25,927 nucleotides of DNA, taken from positions 1-25,927 of the IMG/VR virus record IMGVR_UViG_3300037258_000670; one strand, 5' to 3'. Below the pieces are notes generated by a model. It saw only the letters and a list, made by a program, of their open reading frames with translations, was not told where the DNA came from and searched no databases. Positions within the stretch are counted from its first letter, which is position 1. The number at the start of each line of letters is the position of its first letter. Origin of the DNA: a virus. The translations under genes were made by a program, and so were the position numbers. Below are positions 5,484-18,335 of this stretch, piece by piece.

Positions 5484-5999
5484 ATGCGTTTTAACCCATA
5501 TGATGACGTCATGGTGCAACCTGTGGTGGCCAGCTCGGTAGCGGTTCAATCGCTCACCGGCAGCTCCGCAGTCAACCAGGACGGTCTTGATACCGGCACG
5601 GTGTTCGACGCCGACTCTATCATGGTGCACATCCGCGCCGAGATTGCTTCGGGCAGCCCGACCACTTCAACGGTGGCATGGAAGCTGCAGGAGTCAAACG
5701 ACAACGGCAGCACCGACAGCTACGCCGACGCGACGGACAACACCGGCACCGTGATTGGAGCGACGCTGAACGTCAAGACCGTTGCGGTAGACAGCTACGC
5801 GCGCGTTGAGGGCATTATGCTTCGCAACAACAGCCTTTCAGCCGCCCCATACGGTGGCCACAAGCGCTGGCTTCGCATCGTCTACACACCGGCATTCTCC
5901 GGCGGCACGAGCCCGGCAATCCTGGTTTCCGGTGAATACATCGGCGCGCCAGGGAACGGAGCCGTGCTCCCAGTCCGCACCACAACGTCAAATACTTGA
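5484..5999 (+). CDS. Probable head decoration / virion structural protein
   Basis: The product is 171 aa, mostly beta-type, rich in Ser/Thr/Gly/Ala with few Lys. Segments such as STVAWKLQESNDNGST, YARVEGIML and RWLRIVYTPAFSGGTSPAILVSGEY resemble small head-associated structural proteins found after capsid genes in HK97-type phages. There is no enzyme motif, signal peptide or membrane helix. Role is inferred from composition and position; a minor tail or head-completion protein is the alternative. Confidence 0.55.
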   Translation: MRFNPYDDVMVQPVVASSVAVQSLTGSSAVNQDGLDTGTVFDADSIMVHIRAEIASGSPTTSTVAWKLQESNDNGSTDSYADATDNTGTVIGATLNVKTVAVDSYARVEGIMLRNNSLSAAPYGGHKRWLRIVYTPAFSGGTSPAILVSGEYIGAPGNGAVLPVRTTTSNT

Positions 6000-6061: not shown

Positions 6062-6619
6062 ATGGCCGAAATAAAAGGACGAAAACAACCTCTCGGCTTT
6101 ATGTCCGAGGAGCACAAACGGAAGATTAGCGAAGCACAGAAGGGACGTTCGCTCACTGCTGAACATAGGGCTAAACTGCGTGGAAAGCGGCCACATGCAA
6201 AGCCTTGGAACAAAGGCAGGCGATATTCCCTTCGACACCACGCTCAGTTTTTCAAGGGTCAACCAGCGTGGAACAAGGGCAAACCTCTCTCTGAGGAGAC
6301 GAAACAAAAACTGCGTGATGCAATGAAGGGTAGGTTTGTCGGCTCCAAAGGTCCCGGATATATCGACGGTCGCACGCCCATTTACCAGATCATTCGTCAC
6401 TCACTCGAATACCGCCTTTGGCGCGATGCCGTTTTTGCACGGGACAAATATCGTTGCATTTGGTGCGGCGATGCACGCGGCGGCAATCTTGAAGCAGATC
6501 ATATCAAGCCGTTCGCTTATTTTCCGGAACTCCGATTTGCAATAGATAATGGCCGTACGCTCTGCCACGGCTGCCACAAGACGACTGATACTTATGGCCG
6601 CAAGGCCACCCACCACTGA
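6062..6619 (+). CDS. HNH homing-type endonuclease with NUMOD3 motifs
   Basis: The product is 185 aa. NUMOD3-like DNA-binding repeats occur at residues about 14-30 (MSEEHKRKISEAQKGR), 32-41 and 77-91 (SEETKQKLRDAMKGR). The C-terminal HNH domain has zinc Cys pairs CIWC (132/135) and CHGC (168/171), the catalytic pair in EADHIKP (D146, H147) and DNGRTLC (N163). It cuts dsDNA and probably moves itself as a free-standing homing endonuclease. It sits between two head genes, 1 nt before the connector start, and has its own candidate promoter and leader hairpin. It shares the ending xNGRTLCxxCHxxTxTxG with the HNH protein at 17700. Confidence 0.9.
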   Translation: MAEIKGRKQPLGFMSEEHKRKISEAQKGRSLTAEHRAKLRGKRPHAKPWNKGRRYSLRHHAQFFKGQPAWNKGKPLSEETKQKLRDAMKGRFVGSKGPGYIDGRTPIYQIIRHSLEYRLWRDAVFARDKYRCIWCGDARGGNLEADHIKPFAYFPELRFAIDNGRTLCHGCHKTTDTYGRKATHH

Positions 6620-6620
6620 T

Positions 6621-7496
6621 ATGGAACAAGTATCACCCTACGGACTAACGACTCTCGCGCGGGTGAAAGACCTGCTTTTTGACCCATCACTCACTGTCCA
6701 GCTCACGGGCACGACCACAAATGACAGCGCTGTTGTTTCGAGCACCGTCGTCCCGGCCGGCAAGGTCATTCGAATAGGCCAGACCATCACTGGACCAGGG
6801 ATACCTACGGGCACGACAATCGCTGGCACCGACGCCACCGGCAACACCCTGACGCTCTCGCAGAACGCGACTGCTGGCGCCAGCGTGACGCTCTATGTAG
6901 TCGACCAATCGGTTGCCTACGACACGGTGCTCACACGGCTTATAAACGCTGTGTCGCAATACATCGCCCAGGAGTGCGGGCGCACGTCGTTCGTCCAGCA
7001 GACGTTCACCAACGACACATATTCCATCGAAGAGCCCGACCAGGAGTTTCTCCAGTTGAGGAACTTCCCCGTCTTTTCCATTTCGAGCTTCCAGTGGCGC
7101 GCAGGCACGCCAAGCAACCCGAGCTGGACCGACTTCATCACTGACCAATATGAGCTGGTCGACCCAAGGACGGACCCCGTCTCAGGAGTGGTTTGGTATC
7201 CGAGCGGCATGGTGCGCGTCTATGGCGTGCTGCCGCGCATCTACAGCAACATGATCCGCGCGACCTATATCGCAGGCTATCCGGTCGACTGGCCGAACGC
7301 GGGGAATGGGACCACACATCGCCTGCCCGACGACCTCACCTATCTCTGCGAAAATCTCGTTGTTCGAAGGTTCAAGCGCCGCCAACTCGCCGGCATGAGC
7401 TCAACCGCACTCGAAGGAGCCACCCATAGCTGGCGCAACGAATTGGATGCAGACGACCTCGACGTGCTCGCGCAATACCGCGACCTTCATTTTTGA
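6621..7496 (+). CDS. Head-tail connector (gp6-like) with inserted Ig-like domain
   Basis: The product is 291 aa. The head-completion core is recognisable as YGLTTLARVKDLLF at the N-terminus and then, after a gap, YDTVLTRLINAVSQYIAQECGRTSF. In ordinary connectors these two segments are nearly adjacent. Here residues about 22-96 are an insertion containing IGQTITGPGIPTGTTIAGT and TLTLSQNATAG, a beta-domain pattern that recurs in the tail tube protein. The connector sits under the portal to join head and tail. ATG 6621 follows the HNH stop by 1 nt. Confidence 0.8.
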   Translation: MEQVSPYGLTTLARVKDLLFDPSLTVQLTGTTTNDSAVVSSTVVPAGKVIRIGQTITGPGIPTGTTIAGTDATGNTLTLSQNATAGASVTLYVVDQSVAYDTVLTRLINAVSQYIAQECGRTSFVQQTFTNDTYSIEEPDQEFLQLRNFPVFSISSFQWRAGTPSNPSWTDFITDQYELVDPRTDPVSGVVWYPSGMVRVYGVLPRIYSNMIRATYIAGYPVDWPNAGNGTTHRLPDDLTYLCENLVVRRFKRRQLAGMSSTALEGATHSWRNELDADDLDVLAQYRDLHF

Positions 7497-7498
7497 TT

Positions 7499-7948
7499 AT
7501 GGAATTTTCCGTCCAACTCGAAGGGCTGACTGGACTGGTTGAGAAGTTGAACCAGTCGCCGGCTATCGCGACACCGATTTTGCAGCGCGCCGTCGTTGCA
7601 TCGTCACTGGTGCTCGCGAAAAATACCAATGCCCGCACAGTGCCTATTCGAACGGGATTTTTGGTCAATCACTTTCAGTGGGTAGTCGGAAATCTCAAAG
7701 GTTGGTGGTATCCGACCGCATCCTACGCGCCACTTGTCGAGTTTGGCACCAAGCCCCATGTCATCCGGCCAAAGGATAAGCAAGCATTGTATTGGCCTGG
7801 AGCGGACCATCCAGTTCGCAGCGTCAACCATCCCGGCACCAAGGCAAACCCATATATGGAGCGTATACTTGCCGCAGCGACCGACGAAATCAACCAAAAG
7901 TTCGGCACCGCATTACAATCGATAATTCAGGCGCTCGCCGCCCAATAA
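7499..7948 (+). CDS. HK97 gp10-like head-tail joining protein
   Basis: The product is 149 aa from ATG 7499, 2 nt after the previous stop. The gp10-family pattern is visible: GLVEKLNQSPAIATPILQRAV, VPIRTGFLVNHF, YAPLVEFGTKPHVIRPK, and NPYMERILAAATDEINQKF. Members act in the head-tail interface or tail completion of siphophages, and position after the connector fits. No Shine-Dalgarno sequence; translation is probably coupled. Confidence 0.82.
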   Translation: MEFSVQLEGLTGLVEKLNQSPAIATPILQRAVVASSLVLAKNTNARTVPIRTGFLVNHFQWVVGNLKGWWYPTASYAPLVEFGTKPHVIRPKDKQALYWPGADHPVRSVNHPGTKANPYMERILAAATDEINQKFGTALQSIIQALAAQ

Positions 7949-7949
7949 C

Positions 7950-8483
7950 GTGTCACAGGAAATTGCGGGAGCAGAATACGGGGGATATGACAGCTCGAGC
8001 AACATCGCGCCGGCCTCGACGCTTGGCGGCTCGCTCGCGCAAAACATCAAGCGCGAAATCGTGCTCAACCTCAACGCTTTGATAAAAGCGGGCGTGCTGA
8101 ATTCTGTCCTGGAGCTCGATTACGGCAAAGACCCCACGACCATCGAACCGCCATCGGGCTATCCGTTCGCGCTCGTCGGCATGCCGACGGTTATGTCAGA
8201 CTACGAAGACCAAGCAACGAACCGAAGAACCTACCGCTTCGACACCCTCATCGTGACATCGTACGAGGCACTAGCCGACCAGACAGAAGGTGTTGAGTTC
8301 ATCCTCGACGCGGTGCTCAATCAGTTCGACAACAACTTCACCCTCGCGGGAGCCGCGATAGCCACCGTCTTACCCGTAGAGATTATGACGATGCCAGTAT
8401 CCACAGCGACCAAGGCTTTGGTGTGTTTTCTGGTAACATTGAAATGTCAGACACTTTTCGAAATAACAAATCCAACCCCATGA
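7950..8483 (+). CDS. Probable tail terminator / tail completion protein
   Basis: The product is 177 aa starting at GTG 7950, 1 nt after the previous stop. After a low-complexity N-terminus it has an alternating helix/strand core: REIVLNLNALIKAGVLNSVLELDYGKDP, RRTYRFDTLIVTSY, GVEFILDAVLNQF, and a final strand pair ending LVTLKCQTLFEI. This matches the shape of terminator proteins that cap the tail tube in siphophages. The place between gp10-like and tail tube genes is the expected one. The call rests mainly on order and fold-like pattern. Its 3' end overlaps the next gene. Confidence 0.65.
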   Translation: MSQEIAGAEYGGYDSSSNIAPASTLGGSLAQNIKREIVLNLNALIKAGVLNSVLELDYGKDPTTIEPPSGYPFALVGMPTVMSDYEDQATNRRTYRFDTLIVTSYEALADQTEGVEFILDAVLNQFDNNFTLAGAAIATVLPVEIMTMPVSTATKALVCFLVTLKCQTLFEITNPTP

Positions 8484-8692
8484 TTGAACAACCTGCTCAA
8501 AACAAAATGATGACCTCGGCGCCCAGCGAAAAGGCGGGATTTCACTTCTCTGGCGATGGCATTTGGCGTCCTGCATACATCTGGGCGGAGCACATTGAAG
8601 CCGCGACGAAAGAGTGGCTCAAAACGCGCAAATCAATCACCCCTATGCCCGAGCAATCCACAGCCCCCGTGGACACGGAGAATAAAGAGTAA
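8444..8692 (+). CDS. Unknown small protein before tail tube gene
   Basis: The product is 82 aa from ATG 8444; ATG 8480 or an upstream GTG at 8423 are alternatives. It overlaps the end of the terminator gene by 40 nt in another frame. The centre, FSGDGIWRPAYIWAEHIEAATKEWLKTRKSI, is aromatic and helical; both ends are polar and low complexity. No known motif. Position suggests a tail accessory. Confidence 0.55.
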   Translation: MSDTFRNNKSNPMIEQPAQNKMMTSAPSEKAGFHFSGDGIWRPAYIWAEHIEAATKEWLKTRKSITPMPEQSTAPVDTENKE

Positions 8693-8703
8693 ACTACAGC
8701 TAT
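8690..8703 (+). promoter_or_regulatory. -10-like box TAAACT before ATG 8704 (leaderless start)
   Basis: TAAACT at 8690-8695 plus 8 nt (ACAGCTAT) leads directly into ATG 8704. It overlaps the stop codon of the upstream gene. The spacer nearly equals that before ATG 1296. Confidence 0.45.
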
Positions 8704-9894
8704 ATGAAAGGCATCGGCAGACTTATACAGGTGGGGGTGGCGAAAGAGACTACGCGTGGCACAGCGATAAGTTCGGCCGCATTTTGGAACCCTTGGAACG
8801 ATTTAACTCTCGACGAAAAGAAAGAGTTTGCCGTTGACTCTCAGGCCTATGGCGTCATCGAAGACAGCGTCAATCTCACGCAAACAAAAAAATGGTCGCA
8901 AGGTTCACTTGCCGGAAACGTGCTTGACCAGAGTTTTGGCCTCATTCTCTATTCGATGTTCGGCACGCTCACCTCGCACTCGGCGCACTCCGGTGAGACT
9001 GTTGTCTATGACAACATCTTTAACGTCGGTGAGAGCGCACAACACCAATCGCTGACGCTTTTCTTGCATGACCCGCTCGCAGGCGTGGATTATTCTTATG
9101 CGAACGGTGTCGTAGAGAAGCTGGAGATAAACGCCGTCCTCAAGCAATTCGTCAATTTCAATGCAACCATCAAAGCACTTTCTGGTGCAGCGCAGAGCAC
9201 CTTTTCCCCATCAACCACGACGGAGAACCGATTTGTTCCACAATATCTTGCTGCGAAATTCGCGCTCAACTCTGCCGGCCTTGCAGGAACGCTTACCGCA
9301 ACCGGTACTGCGGCAAGCACCGTCCACGTCACGGCATGCAGCATCAATCCGCAAACCAACCTGAAAGTAGGCATGGGAGTGACCGGCACGAACATCCCCA
9401 CGAACACGACCATCGCAAAAATTGTCAGCGCAACTGCTTACGACCTTTCAGCAGCAACGACCGGCGCCATTGGCACGCAAACATTCACACCGGTAGCAAT
9501 TCCTCTCAAAAGCGCGAAGCTCACCATCAATGCGAGCGTTGAGGACCAGGATGTTCTCGGCAATCTCAATCCGGCCGACTTCCTCAACAAGGAATTTTCG
9601 GTCGAGGCGACGATGGAATGTATCTGGCAAAACGAAAGCGACTTCAAGGCACAGTTCATGGGGCCGTACCCACTTTCTATCCAGCTCGACTTCAAAAACA
9701 CGGATGTCACCATTGGCAGTACCACCAACCCCGAGCTCATCTTCACCATGTACAAATGCACCATCCAGGAACTCGGTCGCCCATTTAAGGTAAAGGATTT
9801 GGTCTACCAAACAATCAAAGTGAAGGCAGTGTACTCCGTCTCTGACACGACGATGATTACCTCAACCCTCACGAATACGGTGAACGGCTATTAG
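8704..9894 (+). CDS. Major tail tube protein with inserted Ig-like domain
   Basis: The product is 396 aa. The N-terminus GRLIQVGVAKETTRGTAISSAAFWNPW and later QGSLAGNVLDQSFGLILYSMFG, VEKLEINAVLKQFVNFNATIKALSG and FKNTDVTIGSTTNPELIFTMYKC resemble siphophage tail tube proteins that polymerise on the tape measure. Residues about 192-264 are an insertion (VGMGVTGTNIPTNTTIAKI, then YDLSAATTG) of the same type as in the connector. Such domains may decorate the tail surface. Tail tube assignment is from pattern plus position before the chaperone and tape-measure genes. Confidence 0.82.
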   Translation: MKGIGRLIQVGVAKETTRGTAISSAAFWNPWNDLTLDEKKEFAVDSQAYGVIEDSVNLTQTKKWSQGSLAGNVLDQSFGLILYSMFGTLTSHSAHSGETVVYDNIFNVGESAQHQSLTLFLHDPLAGVDYSYANGVVEKLEINAVLKQFVNFNATIKALSGAAQSTFSPSTTTENRFVPQYLAAKFALNSAGLAGTLTATGTAASTVHVTACSINPQTNLKVGMGVTGTNIPTNTTIAKIVSATAYDLSAATTGAIGTQTFTPVAIPLKSAKLTINASVEDQDVLGNLNPADFLNKEFSVEATMECIWQNESDFKAQFMGPYPLSIQLDFKNTDVTIGSTTNPELIFTMYKCTIQELGRPFKVKDLVYQTIKVKAVYSVSDTTMITSTLTNTVNGY

Positions 9895-14454: not shown

Positions 14455-15060
14455 ATGAAATCGCGTGAAGGTTTGCGTCTATCGGGCAAAATTACAATCA
14501 ACACCTATCGCGCGAGAATGGTGGAGGCCGTGACACCATTCCTTGAACATATTAAGTTTCTTCAGAGGCTCCCAAACGGTGCAGCAAAGCAGGAAATCCT
14601 CTCACTTCGAAAAACAATTGCAGACCTGAGGGCTTATCATTTCATCGGCACCGCCGTCGAATGCCCCAACCTCATCATGGACAGCCCTGGCTACGGGCTT
14701 GACCTTGTTATTCAACGTCTCGTCGGCATCAATACCTACTCTCTCAATCTCGGTTTCATAGAATTAGGGACAGGGACAACTCCTCCGACCGTCAATGATA
14801 CGGGTCTTACCACACCGGCGGTCCGACTCGCGGTTTCGTATCAGGAAGACTACGGCGCGACGGACGCCATCGTTCAGGCCTACGTATCCGATGCGGGACT
14901 TCCGAATGGAACCTACACTGAAATCGGCACATTCGTAGACGGCGACTCGACTATCGGGACTGGGCAGATATTCAATCACGCACTCTTCCTACCATCTTAC
15001 ACAAAGGTGTCGGGTCAAGATTCCACGATTGAAGTAGACATAGGCATCATGAATTCCTGA
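14455..15060 (+). CDS. Tail-associated structural protein of unknown role
   Basis: The product is 201 aa. A basic helical N-terminus (residues 1-60) is followed by a beta-rich domain: LGFIELGTGTTPPTVNDTGL, then VRLAVSYQEDYGATDAIVQAYVS and GTYTEIGTFVDGDSTIGTG. Similar GTGTTPPTVNDTGLxTP segments are common in phage tail proteins next to fibres. Location between hub and collar/fibre protein suggests a baseplate or fibre-attachment part. No catalytic motif. Confidence 0.6.
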   Translation: MKSREGLRLSGKITINTYRARMVEAVTPFLEHIKFLQRLPNGAAKQEILSLRKTIADLRAYHFIGTAVECPNLIMDSPGYGLDLVIQRLVGINTYSLNLGFIELGTGTTPPTVNDTGLTTPAVRLAVSYQEDYGATDAIVQAYVSDAGLPNGTYTEIGTFVDGDSTIGTGQIFNHALFLPSYTKVSGQDSTIEVDIGIMNS

Positions 15061-15109: not shown

Positions 15110-16594
15110 ATGCGGTCGTCCAACGTTTCGGTAGACCAACCTGCGCAGGCACAGCAATTTAACTCACTGCGAGCCGATGCTGCCGGCGGAGCAAGCCTTC
15201 TTGTCCATCAGCAGTTTGGCTATTTCACACTCTCGACAAACCCAGGTAACGGAAAAACACTGACCCTCACAATCAATGGCAGCGCCATTATCTTTACGTT
15301 TGTTTCATCTGTTGGCTCATCGCCAAACAATGTGCTCATCGGAGCCTCGGCCGTCGCGACTTGCGCCAATCTGCTAGCCCTTCTCAATCAACCGCAGACC
15401 TCAACCACGACCGGCGTTGCGCTCTCTATCGCCAATCAAATGCTCGTCGGCTTCCTGAGCTATTCGCTTGTTGGAACGACGCTTACGATATCGGGCAACA
15501 ACACACTGAATTTTGGTCCCGTCACAAGCTTCAGCGCGGCGACTGATGCGACGAGTGACGCGTGGACGTCGCAAACCATGCAGCTGTATGTCGAACCCGG
15601 AACGACGACGATTGCCGGAACAAATATCTCTTTCCTTGGCGGGTCAACTCCTACGTTCACGGCGCCCTCATCGCATCCTCGCATTGACTTGGTTACTATC
15701 AACGGCTCGGGCGCAATCGTACTGATCAACGGCACCGAAGGCGTATCACCGGCAATCCCTCCCTATCCAACCGGTTCGGTCGTTCTCGCTGAAGTCTTCC
15801 ACGTCGTCGGGGAGACGGCGTTATATGACAATGGCAATCAACAATCCGGCCAAGGATATATACAGAAAGACGCGAGGCCGTTTTTCAACATTACACAAAT
15901 CGTCCAAAGCGGTCTCATCATGATGTGGCCGGTAGCTCCGGTGCCTGCCACATGGCTGGCTTGCGACGGTTCGACGATTTCGCGCGCAACCTACCCAGCG
16001 TTGTTCGGCATCGTTGCTCCGGTCTTTGGCACGGTCACAGTCACTATTGCCTCTCCGACCGTCATATCCGCCGCCGCTCATGGACTTCAAATCGGCGATC
16101 AAGTCTACTTCACCACGACCGGCGCGCTGCCGACCGGCATCTCCCCGAACACGTTGTACTATATAATCAGCGCGGGGTATGGTGCGAACGCATTCCAAAT
16201 CTCCGCAACGCGTGGCGGCTCGGCTATAAATACATCCGGCTCCCAAAGCGGCGTTCACACCATGACCGTGTGCCCGTTTGGTCTCGGCGACGGTTCGACT
16301 ACGTTCAATCTCCCGGATATGCGCGCGAACGTGCCGGTCGGCTACAAGGCCGCCGACGCGAATATGGGCTACTACGGACAGAACGGGGGCGAAGCCACAC
16401 ACACACTCACGACGCCGGAGATGCCGGCACACACCCACTCAACAGACCCGGTAGATGGCAGTGCCTCCTTCGGCTACGAGGCGGGCAACAACGGGCAAGG
16501 TACAACGGTTGGCACTTCGGGCTCGGCCGGCGGAGGCGGCGCGCACAATAACCTTCAACCATATTTGACCCTATTATTCATCATCAAAACATAA
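15110..16594 (+). CDS. Tail fibre / collar protein with interrupted collar domain
   Basis: The product is 494 aa. The N-terminal about 260 residues are beta-rich virion sequence (TLTLTINGSAIIFTF, QLYVEPGTTTIAGTNI). From about residue 270 the phage tail-collar domain appears: IMMWPVAPVPATWLACDGST, YPALFGIV, FGLGDGSTTFNLPDMRANVP, EMPAHTHS and the typical end HNNLQPYLTLLFIIKT. The collar domain is split by an insert at residues about 308-390 (SAAAHGLQIGDQVYFTTTG, then LPTGISPNTLYYIISA) resembling FCCH-like beta domains of phage tails. It is a likely receptor-binding protein. Confidence 0.85.
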   Translation: MRSSNVSVDQPAQAQQFNSLRADAAGGASLLVHQQFGYFTLSTNPGNGKTLTLTINGSAIIFTFVSSVGSSPNNVLIGASAVATCANLLALLNQPQTSTTTGVALSIANQMLVGFLSYSLVGTTLTISGNNTLNFGPVTSFSAATDATSDAWTSQTMQLYVEPGTTTIAGTNISFLGGSTPTFTAPSSHPRIDLVTINGSGAIVLINGTEGVSPAIPPYPTGSVVLAEVFHVVGETALYDNGNQQSGQGYIQKDARPFFNITQIVQSGLIMMWPVAPVPATWLACDGSTISRATYPALFGIVAPVFGTVTVTIASPTVISAAAHGLQIGDQVYFTTTGALPTGISPNTLYYIISAGYGANAFQISATRGGSAINTSGSQSGVHTMTVCPFGLGDGSTTFNLPDMRANVPVGYKAADANMGYYGQNGGEATHTLTTPEMPAHTHSTDPVDGSASFGYEAGNNGQGTTVGTSGSAGGGGAHNNLQPYLTLLFIIKT

Positions 16595-17699: not shown

Positions 17700-18335
17700 G
17701 TGAAGACGGAACTGATTTGCGAAATCTGTGGTCTCATTTACTTTGTGTATCCCTACCGGAAAAGTAGCGCCAGATATTGCTCACGAAAATGCCTCAACAA
17801 AAGCAAAGAAAGCATCGTTCGAGATAAACATCAGAACTGGAAGGGAGGCAAACCGAAGTGCGCTACTTGCGACAAATCCCTGTCTCTCTATGGTTCGAAG
17901 CACTGCAAAAGCCACCGCGTTGTCGCCGACCCAGAGCGGTATCGAAGGTTGAAAGGAGCCGCCACTCGACGTTTCTGGCTAGGTCGGAAACACACACAAG
18001 CAACGATTGAAAAACTAAAAAGGGTTCATACGACTCATGGCCTCACTCCGGTCTTTCAGATAATTCGAGGGTCACAGCGATATAAGGATTGGCGACTTGG
18101 CATATTTCGGCGGGACTGGTTCAAGTGCGTCTTGTGCAGTTCGAACAAAAACATCCAGGCCGACCACTTCCCAAAGAGCTTCAAACAGATCTTAAACGAA
18201 GAGGCCATCATCTCTAGCATCGGAATACCGGACGATAGCCAACTATGGGATGTCAACAATGGAAGAACCCTTTGTTACGATTGCCACAGAGCAACCTCGA
18301 CTTGGGGTGTGCACAACTCAGTTGCTGCCGCGTAG
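17700..18335 (+). CDS. HNH homing-type endonuclease with zinc-finger N-terminus
   Basis: The product is 211 aa from GTG 17700. The N-terminus has a CxxC...CxxxC zinc motif (C7, C10, C27, C31). A second cluster follows (CATC at 54-57, C69, H72), then a NUMOD3-like block (FWLGRKHTQATIEKLKRVH). The HNH domain has CVLC (143/146), QADHFPK (D155, H156), VNNGRTLC (N187) and CYDCH (192-196). It lies between the wall peptidase and the holin candidate, with its own promoter, as expected of a mobile endonuclease gene. It shares the C-terminal motif with the 6062 protein but has a different N-terminus. Confidence 0.88.
   Translation: MKTELICEICGLIYFVYPYRKSSARYCSRKCLNKSKESIVRDKHQNWKGGKPKCATCDKSLSLYGSKHCKSHRVVADPERYRRLKGAATRRFWLGRKHTQATIEKLKRVHTTHGLTPVFQIIRGSQRYKDWRLGIFRRDWFKCVLCSSNKNIQADHFPKSFKQILNEEAIISSIGIPDDSQLWDVNNGRTLCYDCHRATSTWGVHNSVAAA

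Follow-up and report, generated by a model that had tools for sequence, protein, structure and literature searches.

The connector and tail-tube genes and their inserts

The uncultured-virus record IMGVR_UViG_3300037258_000670, analysed here over its whole length of 25,927 nucleotides (25.9 kb; the window), contains genes in the order capsid, connector, tail-completion, tail-tube, tape-measure, hub-like and fibre. Two of the encoded proteins, the head-tail connector and the tail tube, each carry a predicted beta-barrel domain within an otherwise recognizable family core. The connector, a gp6-like adaptor of 291 residues, is encoded on the plus strand at 6621..7496 and matched PHROG 442 (head-tail adaptor) with an E value of 5e-12; its score of 20.6 bits against PF05135 (Phage_connect_1) was slightly below the cutoff of 21.2. 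The connector open reading frame (ORF) spans 6549-7496, and the ATG at 6621 is the probable start because the connectors of three related loci (L012, L006 and L011) likewise begin MEQ. The tail tube protein, 396 residues in length, is encoded on the same strand at 8704..9894 and was identified by PF18906 (Phage_tube_2, E 8e-13) and PHROG 290 (E 3e-15). The connector insert occupies residues ∼21-99 (6681..6917, plus strand), flanked by core helices 1 and 2, at a position referred to as site A; the tube insert occupies residues ∼195-264 (9286..9495, plus strand). A tblastn search of 50,697 phage records returned no match to the bare inserts or to the whole connector or tube, and thus no close cultured relative of either protein was found.

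Inspection of the two inserts reveals that the pattern G-(Q/M)-x-(I/V)-TG-x-x-IP-x-(G/N)-TTIA, which an earlier note on this DNA had described as common to both, is literally present in each. The second half of the proposed motif, LS-x-x-AT, is found in the connector (LSQNAT), but the tube reads LSAATT, that is, LS-x-AT. The inserts are 30% identical, and their local BLOSUM62 score of 75 was reached by one of 5000 shuffles. When a profile of 8 tube inserts was aligned with one of 10 connector inserts, the probability was 95.9 and the P value 6.4e-9 over 54 columns. When window ORFs of ≥60 residues were scanned with a domain hidden Markov model (HMM) built from 22 sequences, two strong matches were obtained (E 2e-27 and 3e-26), the next being at 0.009. 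At a threshold of 1e-3, two domain HMMs gave 140 and 185, and 101 and 101, hits in real ORF sets and none in reversed or shuffled ORFs (7246 and 2423 ORFs).

Borders and predicted fold of the inserted domain

The borders of the inserts were defined by alignment of 17 viral loci obtained from scans with the two window proteins. The tube insert is absent as one clean block in five of these (L010, L013, L014, L015 and L016), and a sixth contig, L012, ends at the tube insertion site. The site A insert is missing from the connectors of L013-L016, three of which (L014, L015 and L016) carry a related domain elsewhere in the connector, after an LRNAPV stretch (site B). In the insert-free L013 connector, Phage_connect_1 positions 3-42 align to residues 11-53, the core being continuous across site A, with a score of 39.3 bits as compared with 20.6 for the window protein. 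Similarly, the Phage_tube_2 match extends on both flanks of the tube insert and scores 76.7 bits for insert-free L010, 49.1 for the window and 46.7 for the more distant insert-free L013. Insert-free proteins therefore appear, for the most part, to match their core families better. Relatives that cleanly lack one or the other insert bear out the proposal that the inserts split recognizable cores, and their alignment places the inserted residues outside those cores. The shared domain is thus real and well-bounded. In a tree of the tube cores, the insert-free L010 tube is nested, behind a starred branch, within a clade of insert-bearing tubes, from which it follows that the tube insert changed state at least twice.

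Two further features were observed in the connectors of relatives. The connectors of L001, L002, L003, L005 and L010 have an in-frame N-terminal extension of ∼80-105 residues (GSGTSWTLANTPVSNSVALYASGVRLTPG..NDYTI-like) upstream of the MEQ-type start. No Pfam or PHROG match was found for the extension of L005, and the extension of the five proteins is possibly a second decoration module. In L007/L145 and L008/L146 the connector is split across two reading frames within the inserted domain, attributable either to a virus frameshift or to a sequencing error.

The tube insert was modelled alone, using 58 copies, with a predicted local distance difference test score (pLDDT) of 79.6 and a predicted template modelling score (pTM) of 0.73. 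The model places strands at residues 6-12, 36-39, 46-51, 57-59 and 67-73, with short bridges at 19-23. In a model of the full connector the insert was confidently predicted (pLDDT ∼80-94 over residues 21-90), with strands at 26-32, 38-43, 55-57, 66-70, 77-79 and 87-94. Both inserts are therefore predicted to form the same six-stranded beta-barrel with matching strand spacing, the second strand being short in the tube model. The models thus bear out the reading of the earlier note that related beta-domains are inserted in both proteins, and the cores that carry them are unrelated.

The best match of both models in the PDB was 8eci_1, annotated as “Decoration protein” of Arthrobacter phage Bridgette. 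The tube insert model aligned to residues 5-79 of this chain with a Z score of 9.5 and a root mean square deviation of 2.0 over 73 aligned residues. The connector model gave a Z score of 8.8, with a deviation inflated to 7.4 by an alignment that continues into the core to residue 196. Searches with hmmsearch also recovered 8eci, with an E value of 1.4e-4 when 17 inserts were used and 2.2e-9 when 58 copies were used (residues 11-73), so that the link is independent of the structure models. The connector sequence profile likewise found 8eci, its other matches being weak and including the connector 8vd8 (E 0.51); the tube sequence profiles matched no solved tail tube. The next fold matches, at Z scores of 5-7, included the LKA1 tailspike, the Mystique tail tube, the Chi and lambda tail tips, F1-ATPase and ribosomal barrels, and similarity at this level can mean a common small barrel only. 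Taken together, the findings show, or at the least strongly support, that the connector and the tube each contain a copy of a single domain of ∼70 residues, which folds autonomously and has a relative in the N-terminal domain of the capsid decoration protein of Bridgette.

Occupancy, history and selection

Occupancy of the insertion sites was scored at E below 1e-4 in 86 related loci (L004, L013, L057 and L139-L221), not every one of which reaches every gene; several of the second-survey loci (L139-L215) are the same contigs as L001-L016. Connector site A was occupied in 20 loci and site B in 36, both sites being filled in L193, L199 and L204. The tail tube carried the insert in 28 loci, in two of which (L161 and L165) a second copy is present in tandem. 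Two other sites lie in proteins whose window homologues are free of the domain. Site D, in the homologue of the plus-strand product of 5484..5999 beside the capsid gene (PHROG 5707), was occupied in 7 of the 86, and site F, in the homologue of the tail-fibre-like product of 14455..15060 (plus strand), in 2 (L183 and L193). PHROG 4176 (tail fiber) matched both the window protein at 14455-15060 and its L193 homologue. One further copy had no site assignment. Within one virus group, the domain thus occupies five sites distributed over four protein families, and the window has two of these sites filled. Six of the loci, tail tube relatives L216-L221, were found in assemblies labelled Acidobacterium, uncultured bacterium, Peribacteria, Nomurabacteria (two) and Falkowbacteria; these labels may denote hosts or binned phage contigs.

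The earlier note had placed the domain in the connector and the tail tube, where it is indeed found, but further carrier proteins show that it is not confined to them. The DNA pattern for GTGIPxGTT was found in at least 120 stretches, in a survey that favours copies containing this motif and whose counts are neither complete nor unbiased. Iterated HMMs detected at least 187 copies in at least 151 ORFs of the surveyed loci; outside L001-L017 these amounted to at least 127 domain-bearing ORFs in at least 53 clusters. Carrier classification covered 20 of the latter ORFs. The classified carriers included a tail-tube-family protein (L068) and a major tail protein (L030), a head decoration protein (L089, E 3e-5) and a minor head protein (L052), virion structural proteins (L032, L137, L019, L088 and L115), tail collar or fibre proteins (L098, L031 and L043) and an amidase/distal-tail protein (L061). 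Four of the 20 (L099, L059, L041 and L121) had no PHROG match at 1e-3. A search of BFVD with the tube-insert model returned 602 matches at E values up to 10, 4 of them at 1e-3, among which were many proteins of named or uncultured phages. The domain therefore behaves as a general-purpose add-on to unrelated virion building blocks.

The fibre protein of the window, encoded at 15110-16594, contains a different beta-type module (GLQIGDQVYF..GALPTGI..YYII; 16028..16273, plus strand) that splits its tail collar domain. L092 and L093 carry the barrel domain at the exact collar position occupied by the window module, and the position looks like a reusable insertion point. Comparison of the module with the barrel domain by hhalign gave a probability of 73.7 with a 50-row profile and 1.6 with a single sequence. 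Amid the structural genes, ORFs 6062-6619 and 17700-18335 resemble HNH-type homing endonucleases in a motif.

The earlier note had also suggested that the domain was swapped between head and tail proteins. A tree was built from 97 copies found in the window and the 86 related loci; it is based on few columns and leaves many forks unresolved, and it required only 6 changes of site label (minimum 5, shuffled mean 50). This clustering by site indicates that each site has its own lineage and that the window copies are not recent duplicates of one another. Head and tail copies thus appear not to have been recently exchanged. The presence of two homologous, 30%-identical copies in one genome might be thought to reflect recent copying between connector and tube within the lineage, that is, gene conversion. 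The grouping by site across the 86 loci makes this very improbable, as does the finding that the nearest kin of each window copy occupy the same site: other tube copies at 97% identity for the tube, and another site A copy at 82% for the connector.

What does withstand comparison is replacement in place within one site. The tube copy of L154 branches outside the other tube copies, and the L154 (5974-7170) and L144 tubes are 85% identical in the core and 46% identical in the insert. The drop in identity is limited to the insert along both protein and DNA, and the highest-scoring match of the L154 insert is the copy at the fibre site of L193. This pattern reads as replacement of the domain in place, and L155/L151 (core 84%, insert 52%) may be another instance.

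Among 8 closely related tubes the insert was 90% identical and the core 69%, the insert being the more conserved in all 28 pairs. Divergence at four-fold-degenerate sites was near saturation and similar in the two regions (0.55 in the insert and 0.58 in the core). In a wider set, from which pairs with a core identity of 0.98 or above were dropped, the tube insert was more conserved than the core in 308 of 375 pairs (L154 excluded), as was the site B insert in 249 of 622. The tube copy is thus, as judged from these substitution patterns, under strong purifying selection. A recent sweep was also considered as the source of the high tube-insert identity and was rejected because of the similar four-fold-site divergence in insert and core.

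These data bear on a further possibility, namely that the domain is a near-neutral passenger: a stable module rich in Thr, Ser, Gly and Ala that spreads because surface loops tolerate it and has little function. The insert can be missing (L010) or replaced (L154) without other change to the core, and the connector copy diverges faster than its core, both of which would be expected of a passenger. By contrast, ∼90% identity of the tube insert despite a four-fold-site divergence of 0.55 denotes strong purifying selection, and copies endure as site-specific lineages. A passenger is therefore considered unlikely.

Possible role and comparison with known systems

The distribution and history described above are probably best explained by a plug-in domain, distinct from immunoglobulin (Ig)-like domains, that enters permissive loops of head, neck, tube, collar and fibre proteins. 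Its sites would be inherited separately and its domains exchanged in place, which would yield a combinatorial coat of up to five sites. A more specific account, which we regard as only slightly on the probable side when taken as a whole, is that of an autonomous barrel that projects outward and most likely serves for mechanical reinforcement. The barrel would enter loops of virion proteins and leave the host core intact, and could be gained or lost, doubled in tandem or replaced in place. Since assembly of the cores and passage of DNA through them must be preserved, it would project outward from the neck and the tube. Once exposed, it might pack on neighbouring subunits or on the capsid vertex and so reinforce the particle.

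As to function alone, reinforcement is tentatively put forward as the most likely single role, with adhesion a close second; a structural role thus seems at least as likely as the host-surface binding suggested in the earlier note, and is slightly favoured. The lean towards reinforcement is based on the conserved tube copy, the kinship with a capsid decoration protein and the scarcity of aromatic residues, which make up 3.9% of the domain and exceed 25% in only one of its well-filled columns. Precedents exist in two other phages. In YSD1, domain2 of the tail tube protein is described as packing on the adjacent tail subunit (PMC8718954), and in R4C the attachment domain of the adaptor is reported to touch the capsid, a part in adsorption being considered improbable (PMC10276861).

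Several observations weigh against this interpretation. A precise interface seems less likely given the replacement of the module in L154 by one that is 46% identical and its clean absence from L010. The domain is also carried by tail fibres, by collar proteins and by a tail protein with an amidase, where reinforcement of a lattice makes little sense. At connector site A, moreover, the insert exceeded its core in conservation in only 5 of 209 pairs. In addition, most of the connector core was poorly modelled (pLDDT <50), and the tube model is of the insert alone.

The principal alternative is adhesive display, in which the barrels would provide many weak sites for host-surface or environmental glycans on the head, neck, tail and fibres. 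Carriers come from all regions of the virion, fibres and collar included, and exposure is the only feature common to them. Weak fold matches were also obtained to RcGTA and R4C chains at 165-251 and 161-245 (Z 5.4). The R4C range, in a chain that we infer to be the hub, coincides with the hub oligosaccharide-binding domain reported at 162-243 (PMC10276861). Moreover, Ig-like domains of the Douge capsid and tail tube are reported to bind mycobacterial glycans (PMC13033339). However, Z scores of 5-6 are also reached by unrelated barrels such as F1-ATPase, the few aromatic residues do not favour glycan binding, and the tube copy appears to be under stronger purifying selection than its core, unlike typical host-range determinants. 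Adhesive display is accordingly regarded as a serious possibility that falls somewhat short of even. The finding illustrates well how virions can be decorated in a modular way. In a single virus group, the same proteins occur without the insert, with one copy, with two in tandem or with a replaced copy, and these versions constitute natural experiments on accessory-domain function.

The relationship of the domain to known families was also considered. Neither the full proteins nor the 17 inserts matched an Ig-family model of Pfam at E values up to 1, and neither Pfam nor NCBIfam contains a model covering the domain, although some PHROGs include it under “virion structural protein.” A curated family model would aid annotation of many virion proteins now listed as unknown. 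The best fold matches were a decoration protein and barrels; the absence of the Ig fold from the match list does not exclude that fold, and it is in sequence that the domain is not Ig-like. A literature search found no printed description of the domain, its coverage being incomplete, with most subscription journals outside it and the sequence motif searched once.

The closest known system is the N-terminal domain of the Bridgette decoration protein, which resembles the inserts in both sequence and fold; in Bridgette it is part of a free-standing capsid protein of 126 residues, whereas here it is inserted within a connector and a tail tube. Residues 103-181/185 of the tail tube of the Acinetobacter phage Mystique (PDB 9n71) gave a Z score of 6.8 with both insert models, a likeness that, being below 8, may reflect a common arrangement only. 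The literature search found no paper on this tail tube, which is unmentioned in PMC12507263. The major tail protein of YSD1 is likewise a tail-tube protein with an inserted beta-domain, which is reported to form a beta-sandwich, to lie between alpha1 and beta4 and to pack against the neighbouring subunit (PMC8718954). The R4C adaptor likewise bears an accessory beta-domain near the capsid, but that domain is described as N-terminal and Ig-like, whereas the present one lies within the core between the first two helices (PMC10276861).

The domain thus represents a second, apparently common barrel family that acts like the Ig-like domains and whose solved relative sits on the capsid. The textbook example of a promiscuous accessory domain in phage virions is the Ig-like domain. 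Ig-like domains of the Big_2, I-set and FN3 families are likewise described as accessory beta-domains on many structural proteins (PMC13033339 and PMC10276861). In contrast to them, the domain described here is predicted to be a six-stranded barrel with a VGxxxxGxGIPxGTT core and lies inside the core of its carrier rather than at a terminus. It appears, therefore, to be a promiscuous accessory virion domain of a kind already known, belonging to a family whose sequence sets it apart from the Ig-like domains.

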